Shown: piece after piece, positions 28,595-33,127 of the stretch
Layout of the letters: every line of letters begins with the position of its first letter
How positions within the stretch are numbered: the first letter of the stretch is position 1
Source of the DNA: Planctomicrobium piriforme
GTDB lineage: Bacteria; Planctomycetota; Planctomycetia; Planctomycetales; Planctomycetaceae
Direction: 5' to 3'
Assembly (NCBI GenBank): GCA_945860955.1
Contig: CAMATH010000007.1
Span: 1 to 64,000, forward strand
DNA length: 64,000 nucleotides
The notes under the pieces: generated by a model
Seen by the model: only the letters and a program-made list of their open reading frames with translations
Databases searched by the model: none
What the model was told of the DNA's origin: nothing
Position numbers and translations under genes: made by a program

Positions 28595-29473
28595 ATGTCT
28601 GAACAGAGGCTGAAACTGGGCATTCCCGCGGGAAGCCTGCAAGAAGCGACGGGCGAGTTGTTTCGTCGCGCGGGATACAACATCAAGTTTTCGTCTCGGT
28701 CGTACTACCCCGAGATCGACGACGCCGAGATCGACTGTCTGCTGATTCGCGCCCAGGAAATGGCGCGGTACGTGGAGCAGGGAGTGCTGGACGCGGGGAT
28801 CACGGGGCACGACTGGATTGTCGAAAACAACGCCAGCGTGCATGAAGTGTGCGAGCTGATGTTTTCGAAAGTGAGCCGGCGGCCCGTGCGGTGGGTGCTG
28901 TGCGTTCCCAACGATTCTCCCGTGCAGTCGGTGAAAGATCTGCAAGGGAAACGGATCGCGACCGAGGTGGTGGGGCTGACGAAAGCGTTTTTCGCGCAGC
29001 ACGGAGTGACGGCGCAGATTGAGTTTTCGTGGGGTGCGACCGAGGTCAAGCCGCCGAAACTCGCCGACGCGATCGTCGAAGTGACCGAGACCGGCAGCTC
29101 GCTGCGAGCCAACAATCTGCGGATTGTCGCCGAGGTGTTGCGAAGCACCACCCGCTTCATCGCGAACAAGTCGGCCTGGGCCGACGAGTGGAAGCGGGCG
29201 AAGATCGAAAACGTCGCGCTGATGCTCCAGTCGTGTCTGGCCGCCGAGGGCAAAGTCGGGCTGATGATGAATGTCCGCCGGTCGGATCTGGCGAAGGTGC
29301 TGGAACAGTTGCCGGCGCTCCAGAAGCCGACGGTTTCGTCGCTGTCGGATCCGGACTGGGTCGATGTGAACACGATTGTCGAAGAGTCGTTTGTGCGAGT
29401 GGTTGTTCCCCGGTTGAAGGGGGCGGGGGCCCGGGGCATCGTCGAATACCAGATCAACAAAATCATCGATTGA
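28595..29473 (+). CDS. hisG: ATP phosphoribosyltransferase, long form
   Basis: 292 residues. The long HisG form has two catalytic domains plus a C-terminal ACT-like regulatory domain (about 215-292, ending in [14 protein letters not shown]) for histidine feedback. L-G-I-P-A-G-S-L at the N-terminus and D-A-G-I-T-G-H-D-W match the family. It starts histidine synthesis by joining ATP and PRPP. The start is three bases after hisI. No HisZ is needed for this form. Confidence 0.94.
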
Positions 29474-29482
29474 GACTCTCCC

Positions 29483-30022
29483 GTGTTTGATTCACCCGAC
29501 TACGAGGACTTCAGGCAGTTCCGCGACGCCTGGCAGTCGGTGCGGATCGAGCGGGAATCGACCTACTCGCTGTTCACATTCGGCGAATCGGAACTCCCGT
29601 ACTTCCTGGTGACTACCCCGCCTAAGCTTGGTGATCCGGTGACCATTATCCGGGGAGATGTTCGGATCACCCGTCCACTGATCATCACTCCCGACAACGC
29701 CGGTCCGGAATTCAGCAATTTCTTTGACGATCCCGATGAAGAAGGGCTGGTTCAACGGTTTATCATGTCGCGGTCGGCGGCGTTTTCGCACATGCGGTTC
29801 ACAAATCGCCAGGGAGAACCCCGGATTGTGACCGACAGTGCCGAGGAGGCGGTCGATCGGCTGAAAAAGCAACTGGACGATGCCGAGGAGGATCGGGTGG
29901 CCATTTTGGTCGCCCCTACGCAGATGGCGGGGTTCGCCGTCTTTCGGTACACGGCACAACGGGTGATCGCCAGTGCGCCCGACAATATCCAGGAATTGCG
30001 TGAACGGGGGTTTCTGCCGTAG
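29483..30022 (+). CDS. Hypothetical protein in the his unit
   Basis: 179 residues from GTG 29483, nine bases after hisG, so probably co-transcribed. The protein is acidic and soluble, with no signal peptide or membrane segment. No family or catalytic motif is recognised. Mixed beta and helix content and a lone D-D-P-D-E-E-G acidic loop at about 74-80 are the only visible features. No link to histidine synthesis is evident. Confidence 0.7.
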   Translation: MFDSPDYEDFRQFRDAWQSVRIERESTYSLFTFGESELPYFLVTTPPKLGDPVTIIRGDVRITRPLIITPDNAGPEFSNFFDDPDEEGLVQRFIMSRSAAFSHMRFTNRQGEPRIVTDSAEEAVDRLKKQLDDAEEDRVAILVAPTQMAGFAVFRYTAQRVIASAPDNIQELRERGFLP

Positions 30023-30061: not shown

Positions 30062-30067
30062 TATAAT
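30062..30067 (+). promoter_or_regulatory. Minus-10 box TATAAT for the 32-residue protein gene
   Basis: A perfect TATAAT lies 115 bases upstream of the small ORF at 30183. The minus-35 region 17 bases upstream (TTCCAT) is weak. The implied leader of about 110 bases contains a 7-bp hairpin (AGTGGCC at 30113-30119 with GGCCACT at 30123-30129). Confidence 0.5.
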
Positions 30068-30182
30068 CTCCCGCTTCCCAAGTTTTTGAGACCAACCAGA
30101 CCAGCCCAAACCAGTGGCCAACGGCCACTTGAGCCGGCTGTCTGATTTCATCAGTCAGCTCATTCGTTGAGGAGACCCGTCC

Positions 30183-30281
30183 ATGGCCAAGCCCCACCGC
30201 CTGATTAAGAAAGCGAACCACGGTTCGCGTCCCGCGAACGCCAAAGCCCGCCGCGCGAAGCGGCGCAAGCTGCGCACATGA
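30183..30281 (+). CDS. 32-residue highly basic small protein
   Basis: A 33-codon frame from ATG 30183 to TGA 30281, with GAGGAG eight bases before the start. About 14 of 32 residues are Lys, Arg or His; the N-terminus is M-A-K-P-H-R-L-I-K-K and the C-terminus A-K-R-R-K-L-R-T. There are no acidic residues. Size and composition resemble tiny ribosomal or ribosome-associated proteins such as bL34, bTHX or bS22, but I cannot match it to any. It has its own TATAAT box and is followed about 120 bases later by a strong terminator, so it is probably expressed alone. Confidence 0.75.
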   Translation: MAKPHRLIKKANHGSRPANAKARRAKRRKLRT

Positions 30282-30398
30282 TTCGAGGGTTCGCCATCGC
30301 GTGAATTTCGATTTTCGATCTCGGACCACCAGCTCCTGGGATTTGAAATCCGGAAGTCTCAGTGCCTGAGGTTCCAGAATTCGCTCTGCAAAACGTTT

Positions 30399-30434
30399 CG
30401 GGGACGGCCAAGTGGCCGTCCCCGAGTCGTTTTT
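30399..30434 (+). terminator. Strong rho-independent terminator
   Basis: CGGGGACGGCC at 30399-30409 pairs perfectly with GGCCGTCCCCG at 30414-30424 around a four-base loop. AGTCG and a T run (TTTTT from 30430) follow. It ends the transcript of the 32-residue protein. Confidence 0.88.
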
Positions 30435-30693: not shown

Positions 30694-32946
30694 TCAGCGA
30701 TCGCCCCGCAGAATCGCCTGCCGCAGATCTTCCACCTGGTTGAGGTTGATCCCGTCGGGCTTCTTTTCCAACAGCCAGTTCGCGTCGGCGAGTGCGTCAT
30801 CGCGACGCCCGAGCATGAAACGGACAATCGCCCTACGGACGCGGGGATCGGCGGAATCGGGGTCGAGTGCGATGATGGCGTCGAGGTAGCGGACGTGCGA
30901 TTCATGATCGCGCTGCCGTTCCGCCAAGCCGCGGAGGTTGGTCAGCATACGGATGATCATCGCCCGTTTTGTCGTCGATTCCAGGTCCGAAGCCTGTAAC
31001 GGTCGACCGAGGTTCGCCTTCACCATCGCGTCGGCCTCCTCGCGCGACAGGTTGGCCGCCCGCTCATACACGTCGATCAGTTGACTCGGCCCCTCGGCTG
31101 GCTCGTGTCGCACGACGAAGTGCGATGGCAGACCGACCCCCACCACGTTCACTCCGATCTTGCGCGCCATTTCTATGTAGATCACCGAAAGCGTTATCGG
31201 CAATCCTTCCCGGTCATCCAGCACCTCGTTCACGTAACTGTTGGAACGATGGTCGTAATGATCACCTCGCGTTCCGTGAAATCCGCACTCCGAGAACAGA
31301 TATTTGTTGAGGGCGGCCAGTCGAACGGGATCGGTCGCGTCGGCGGGGAGCTCCTTTGCCGTCTCGCGTACCATGCGATCGAGTTCACTGAGGTAAGATT
31401 CCAAATCGACTTCCTCGTTGTCGAGTTGCGCCACCAGTAGCGCCGCCCGAAATAGCTCAATCTCCGCCTCGGGACGTGAAAACAAGCCGGCCAACTGTTC
31501 GATTACCGCTTGTTCGTGTACCGATTGCGCCGCCTGCCGAAGCTGCGCCGCCTGCCGATCCAATTCGCGGGCCCGCTCCCGCAGCGCGGTCTGGCTTCCC
31601 TTTGCCTGTTCTCCCAGTCGACTTGCCAGTTCGCGTCCGCCCGAAGGACGCGCCCCGATCTCCGCGGTCAATTCGTTCAGACGAGCCAGCAGTTCCGGAG
31701 CGACGGAGTCGCTCGGCAGTTCTTTCCCCACACGAAACCCTTTGAATTCGGCGATCGTATTGCGGAACTTCGCGAGTCCGACCCTGCCCGCCGTCAGTCG
31801 TTCGTCGGCCGACTCGATCACGAGTTTGCCATTCACGAAGCACTCGATCTTTTTGGGCTGGAATCGCACCTTGAGGTGGTTCCACTCCCCCGGGCGATAA
31901 TGTTCCGAACGCACGTCTGCCAGCACGGGCCAGGAATTGACATCCGGACCCATGAAACAGGTCAACCGGAGCTTCCCGCCGGAGGGATAAAAGCCGTAGT
32001 GCTTGTCGCCGCCGTCACTACAGAAAGCGAGGCCGGCCGCCCCTTCTTCGTTATCGAGCTTCACGCTGACCGCGATTTCAAACGGCGCGTCGGGGACGGG
32101 GGCTGTCGACAGACAGACGGTCCGTCCGCCAAATCCGTTGCCGGTCCCTTCCGCGAGGATACGTCCCGCCCGCTGTTTCCAGCGGCCCCCCATCAGCGCG
32201 GTCCACTCCTGGGGATCGAGCGCGCCGATCGTCAGCCAACGGGCCATCAGCGTCGGATTGGGTTTCTCCTGCAAGTTCTTGAGTTCGTTGACGGGCATCG
32301 CGAATCCCAGGTTGTCAGTCACCAGGGATTTCATCGTCACCACTCCCAGCACACGGCCCTGCCGATCGAGAACCGGCCCGCCACTGTTGCCCGGTTCGAT
32401 CGGAATCGCGAGCTGCAGCATCGTTTTGCGATCGATCTCCTGCACGCCGGAGATCACCCCCGCGACGACGCTGTATTTGAGGCCGCGGGGGTTGCCCAGC
32501 ACGATCACCGATTGCCCCTGGCGGATCGCGTCAGAATCACCCAACGGGAGCGCGGGGAGGTCGGTGGCGTCGACGCGAATCAGCGCCAGATCGACGTGGC
32601 GGTCGAACGCCTCAACGCTCTTCACCTCGAAATTGCGACCGTCGCTCGTCTGCACGTTCAGCGGGCGGCCCTCACCGATGACGTGCAGATTGGTCGCGAT
32701 CAGCCCGTCCGCCGAGATGACGAAGCCTGTCCCCAGTCCCGAATTCCGCCCGTCGCGCCCGGTGAACGAGATCACCACGATCGACTTCTTCGCCGACTCG
32801 GTCAACTGCTCGACCGACTGTTCCGGTTCCAGCGGCGCGGGAGGCCGGGGAGGTGGCGGAGGTTCATCGCCCCAGGCCACCGCGTGACCGACGAACGACA
32901 GGCAACCGAACAGACAGATTTTGAGAAACGTCAGACGGTCGAACAT
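30694..32946 (-). CDS. Exported HtrA-type protease fused to jelly-roll, SirB1-like and TPR domains
   Basis: 750 residues from ATG 32946; the frame runs to 33078 but lacks a signal there. Residues 4-26 form a signal peptide and 27-42 a proline-rich linker. Residues 45-225 are a trypsin-like HtrA domain with triad His88 (T-N-L-H-V), Asp119 (H-V-D-L-A) and Ser188 (P-G-N-S-G-G-P). Residues about 240-410 resemble the DUF1080/LamG jelly-roll fold. Residues about 420-515 are charged coiled coil. Residues about 530-690 match the SirB1 transglutaminase-like domain (R-E-G-L-P-I-T-L-S-V-I-Y), and the end holds TPR-like helices. No PDZ domain is seen. Periplasmic protein quality control or cell-surface processing is plausible. 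Confidence 0.82.
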   Translation of the reverse strand: MFDRLTFLKICLFGCLSFVGHAVAWGDEPPPPPRPPAPLEPEQSVEQLTESAKKSIVVISFTGRDGRNSGLGTGFVISADGLIATNLHVIGEGRPLNVQTSDGRNFEVKSVEAFDRHVDLALIRVDATDLPALPLGDSDAIRQGQSVIVLGNPRGLKYSVVAGVISGVQEIDRKTMLQLAIPIEPGNSGGPVLDRQGRVLGVVTMKSLVTDNLGFAMPVNELKNLQEKPNPTLMARWLTIGALDPQEWTALMGGRWKQRAGRILAEGTGNGFGGRTVCLSTAPVPDAPFEIAVSVKLDNEEGAAGLAFCSDGGDKHYGFYPSGGKLRLTCFMGPDVNSWPVLADVRSEHYRPGEWNHLKVRFQPKKIECFVNGKLVIESADERLTAGRVGLAKFRNTIAEFKGFRVGKELPSDSVAPELLARLNELTAEIGARPSGGRELASRLGEQAKGSQTALRERARELDRQAAQLRQAAQSVHEQAVIEQLAGLFSRPEAEIELFRAALLVAQLDNEEVDLESYLSELDRMVRETAKELPADATDPVRLAALNKYLFSECGFHGTRGDHYDHRSNSYVNEVLDDREGLPITLSVIYIEMARKIGVNVVGVGLPSHFVVRHEPAEGPSQLIDVYERAANLSREEADAMVKANLGRPLQASDLESTTKRAMIIRMLTNLRGLAERQRDHESHVRYLDAIIALDPDSADPRVRRAIVRFMLGRRDDALADANWLLEKKPDGINLNQVEDLRQAILRGDR

Positions 32947-33127
32947 GCGACGGCTCCGTGGCAGACCGGGGCGAGATGGAAAGTTGTGAAACCGCGGCGG
33001 CACAAGTCTGGGTAGCACCCTTCGCGGACTCCGGGGGACCAAGACGTGGCATCCGATTGTCCGAAAGGGGCCACCCATGATCGCCCCTCGTCATCGACTT
33101 GAGAGCGGGCGGCGACTCCCGGGGGTG

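Follow-up and report, generated by a model that had tools for sequence, protein, structure and literature searches.

At positions 30183-30281 on the plus strand of the window, the whole stretch of 64,000 nucleotides that was analysed, lies an open reading frame that starts with ATG, stops with TGA and encodes the protein MAKPHRLIKKANHGSRPANAKARRAKRRKLRT. It is preceded by hisG (28595-29473; PF01634/PF08029) and then by a 179-aa ORF (29483-30022), and downstream of it, at 30694-33078 on the minus strand, a convergent gene encodes a trypsin/transglutaminase-like protein, in which a trypsin-like protease is joined to a LamG/3-keto-disaccharide hydrolase-like segment and to a transglutaminase-like core. 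The following features were recorded between these neighbours:

30062-30067, plus strand: TATAAT, possible -10 box, an exact hexamer for which a -35 partner was not found
30113-30129, plus strand: leader inverted repeat AGTGGCC-AAC-GGCCACT (7-bp), in a leader of weak fold (z -1.9)
30169-30174, plus strand: Shine-Dalgarno sequence GAGGAG, well spaced at 8 nt upstream of the ATG
30183-30281, plus strand: bL37 gene (planctomycete 50S ribosomal protein, 32 aa), stop included, assigned by its NF047429 match and the signature of purifying selection
30397-30434, plus strand: intrinsic terminator with a 13-bp stem, a 4-nt loop and a T run

The frame is a real gene. The first-pass annotation had proposed a stand-alone gene for a small basic protein of ribosomal type, and both the profile match and the codon conservation described below bear this out. 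Its estimate of about 14 basic and no acidic residues is close to the count, which gives six lysines, seven arginines and two histidines (13 Lys/Arg, 15 with His) and neither Asp nor Glu. The accompanying statement that the protein matched nothing known does not hold, since the curated NCBIfam model NF047429 ('ribo_Plancto_bL37', an equivalog for 50S ribosomal protein bL37) scores it at 58 bits (E 8.7e-16; cut-off 40 bits) over its entire length (1-32 of 32). The model responds in one of 14 control genomes, that of Corynebacterium, and there below the cut-off. Within the NF047429 family, the window protein has the form MAKPHR...ANAKAR, whereas MAKTQR...ASAKAR is commoner in its own taxonomic family. 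Judged by these sequence comparisons, the protein is the planctomycete version of bL37, a family named previously, and the gene, present in a single copy in this genome, is an ordinary but real member of it.

Similar size and charge are also found in other small basic ribosomal proteins, namely bL34, bS22/mS38-AURKAIP1, bTHX and bL36, and the failure to find bL34 in this genome might seem to invite such an assignment. However, a Pfam search of the 32-aa protein with a limit of E 10 matched no family, the L34 model being part of the library, and the only NCBIfam match is to bL37, so that a different ribosomal protein is very improbable. Both bL34 and bS22-mS38 were rejected as candidates, Pfam Ribosomal_L34 and AURKAIP1/COX24 being unmatched at that limit. 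The actinobacterial bL37 model, NF047428, is likewise not among the NCBIfam matches of the protein. As for bL34 itself (PF00468), no match above the cut-off was obtained in this genome and 12 related ones, the best reaching 23.4 bits (in genome G007), and bL34 may have been lost or have strongly diverged in the class.

The pattern of substitution leaves little doubt that the product is a protein. Between the window's gene and its copy in a genome of the same genus (G003), 15 of 96 nucleotides differ. Third codon positions account for 13 of these differences, and all 15 together amount to 14 synonymous codon changes and not a single amino-acid change. When 15 substitutions were placed at random 20,000 times, the resulting amino-acid changes numbered 4 to 15 and never fewer than four, so the observed ORF lies far beyond chance. 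Across 125 distinct bL37 homologues the entropy at codon positions 1, 2 and 3 is 0.64, 0.46 and 1.39 bits, and residues A11, N12, G14, R16 and P17 are invariant in the aligned set. By this codon pattern, the ORF is under strong purifying selection. A small non-coding RNA in which the ORF is incidental would fit the intergenic position and the strong terminator, and a conserved RNA structure with frame disruptions had been named in advance as the finding that would favour it. What was found is the reverse: no Rfam family matches anywhere in the window, none of the 130 homologues used (29-35 aa) has a broken reading frame, and changes fall at synonymous sites. Moreover, when about 3 kb around both same-genus bL37 genes were compared by blastn, only the ORF plus 1-2 nt aligned (100 nt, 85% identity), the flanks being non-alignable apart from one 14-nt chance match. 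The small-RNA explanation was rejected on these grounds and is the least probable of those considered, with next to no likelihood.

Translation and termination signals were read correctly in the first pass, which had pointed to a strong ribosome site and a strong downstream terminator. The GAGGAG motif corresponds to the former, and Shine-Dalgarno-like motifs precede 99 of the 130 bL37 homologues; the latter consists of a stem at 30397-30426 followed by TCGTTTTT, with a fold of -34.3 kcal/mol (z -7.3). The symmetric, A-rich left side of this terminator could also serve the convergent minus-strand gene. The perfect TATAAT reported upstream is indeed exact, but the hexamer occurs twice in the window, where chance alone would give 1.2, and a sigma-70 scan found no two-hexamer promoter for the ORF. 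Since the lone TATAAT lacks a -35 partner and occurs at chance-level frequency, the dedicated promoter and short transcript proposed for the bL37 gene are plausible but unproven. The arms of the leader inverted repeat resemble those of the downstream terminator. A conserved autoregulatory leader hairpin was considered and rejected, as the fold is weak, the repeat is not conserved in the same-genus relative, and by eye it is absent from loci L003, L005, L006 and L080.

The surroundings of the gene vary between planctomycetes. A conserved operon with hisG or the downstream protease was rejected: homologues of hisG and the 179-aa ORF lie beside bL37 in none of 129 loci, and homologues of the protease, with weak matches, in two of 129. 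In 77 of the 129 loci a gene for a FabA/FabZ-like dehydratase (PF07977) comes next, and a trmB-like methyltransferase gene (PF02390) often stands after it, an order found mostly in records titled Planctomycetaceae or Pirellulales (for example locus L151:3001-4327). The window's copy lies outside this setting.

A lack of conservation in related genomes had been named in the first pass as a finding that would refute the gene, but the peptide is well conserved among close relatives. Of 37 genomes sampled from the window's own family 33 carry it, and among the four without a match are two less complete drafts of the same genus. It was found in all genomes sampled from two sister families (4/4 and 1/1) and also in Pirellulales. 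In four other families of the same class (f2, f3, f4 and f6) no bL37 was detected at profile level in any of 17 genomes, and bL37 is therefore not universal in the class; the gap represents lineage-specific loss or extreme divergence. Across the phylum, 81 of 294 genomes have a match at E<=0.01 and 25 of the 294 a match above the curated NF047429 cut-off, from which it follows that the curated model probably misses divergent members.

Structural knowledge of bL37 comes from Actinobacteria, where the protein (NF047428; PDB 5o60, 7kgb, 8crx) has 24 aa and consists of an N-terminal helix of ~13 residues and a C-terminal loop (PMC5876184). In Mycobacterium smegmatis it occupies a pocket formed by H39, H40, the H41/H42 joint, H72 and H89 (PMC5876184), and in Cutibacterium it connects H39, H40, H72, H89 and the 5S rRNA tip (PMC10085706). 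The planctomycete and actinobacterial forms have in common the core R-x-x-x-K-A-N-H-G-x-R-P (ANHGxRP), the size class and the charge. Comparison of the two profiles with hhalign gave a probability of 95.6 with 57% identity over 14 columns, homology to the structurally proven bL37 depending on this core of ~14 residues, and an hmmsearch with the planctomycete profile reaches the M. tuberculosis-type protein (PDB chain 7kgb_v) at E 0.0055. The two differ on either side of the core. Ahead of it the planctomycete protein is shorter by about five residues, in the N-terminal half that in the actinobacterial protein forms the helix and touches H89, and it continues after the core in a basic C-terminal tail of 12-15 residues without an actinobacterial counterpart. 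AlphaFold, run on the window protein without RNA, places no N-terminal helix and, at modest confidence (mean pLDDT 73, pTM 0.31), a helix at residues 20-29 in the tail.

Searches of the PDB sequence set and of a collection of papers found no planctomycete ribosome structure or proteomics, and the mechanism proposed here is modelled on the structures of the actinobacterial homologues. Very probably, the ORF is this planctomycete's single bL37 gene, encoding a 50S protein that fills an rRNA pocket and supports the peptidyl-transferase region. Once incorporated in the large ribosomal subunit, the protein would act as pure rRNA glue, the ANHGxRP core threading, like its actinobacterial counterpart, into the 23S pocket of H39-H42, H72 and H89 beside the tip of the 5S rRNA. 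There it would neutralise backbone charge behind H89, and this neutralisation would steady the region of the peptidyl transferase and the A-site tRNA. The C-terminal tail, basic and weakly predicted to be helical, would probably substitute for the actinobacterial N-terminal helix through additional contacts with rRNA, though this role is speculative. A non-ribosomal function as a small nucleic-acid-binding or antimicrobial peptide, resembling bL37 only because it is short and charged, is also very improbable, if somewhat less so than the other alternatives. Short, very basic peptides do yield convergent matches, and the bL37 of Cutibacterium, when free, inhibits the growth of Gram-positive bacteria (PMC10085706). 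The match, however, goes beyond mere charge to an invariant, non-repetitive core, no secretion features were seen in the protein sequence, and the single genome copy, near-constant length and strong purifying selection are all at odds with such a peptide.

The needs of the pocket may be approached from another side. In Borrelia, uL30 has an N-terminal extension that occupies the bL37 pocket (PMC10618245). A similar substitution in the planctomycete families lacking bL37 was considered but proved inapplicable, as uL30 (PF00327) was undetected in all 24 planctomycete genomes searched, the source genome included, while 13 of 14 controls gave a match. Given this negative result and the role of the uL30 extension in Borrelia, planctomycete ribosomes are well suited to asking what the pocket requires.

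A further lead comes from alveolate mitoribosomes. A planctomycete-only profile (A1) finds Tetrahymena mL102 (6z1p_AQ, residues 63-87, NARPPKKANHGARPCSSVMRRLKKK) with E 1e-4, a stronger match than the one to actinobacterial bL37. With the Tetrahymena fragment as query, phmmer found Toxoplasma mL184 (9g6k) at E 0.0086 and, weakly, Toxoplasma mL102 (9i05) at E 0.14. A second profile (A3) contains mL102/mL184 fragments in its query, and its matches to these proteins are not independent evidence. The bL37-like segments, each made up of core and basic tail, are:

6z1p_AQ, residues 63-87: Tetrahymena mL102
9g6k_UI, residues 7-30: Toxoplasma mL184
9i05_AH, residues 368-391: Toxoplasma mL102

In these proteins a core of the form KKANHGARP or KKGNKGCRP is followed by a basic stretch that aligns with the planctomycete tail; unlike planctomycete bL37, mL102 embeds the core in longer proteins (109 and 396 residues). 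Tetrahymena mL102 is situated between the central protuberance and the L7/L12 stalk, and the main text of the mitoribosome papers PMC7326499, PMC11652630 and PMC11742926 makes no mention of bL37; homology of these proteins to bL37 is inferred from sequence. The loop-plus-basic-tail arrangement of planctomycetes and mL102 may constitute an alternative architecture to the helix-plus-loop seen in Actinobacteria.

The recovery of a 32-residue gene from raw sequence as a conserved ribosomal protein makes the locus a clean positive control. bL37 was described in 2017 as restricted to Actinobacteria (PMC5876184), and the motif in mL102 and mL184 suggests that it is older or more widespread than the structural papers state. 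The chances stand about even that bL37 is both old and wide, with the planctomycete form and alveolate mL102/mL184 being homologous occupants of the same pocket behind H89, present in the ribosome of the mitochondrial ancestor or gained later, in which case the protein would not be an actinobacterial invention. The range of bL37 is widened beyond the Actinobacteria by its planctomycete family and possibly also by the mitoribosomes of alveolates.
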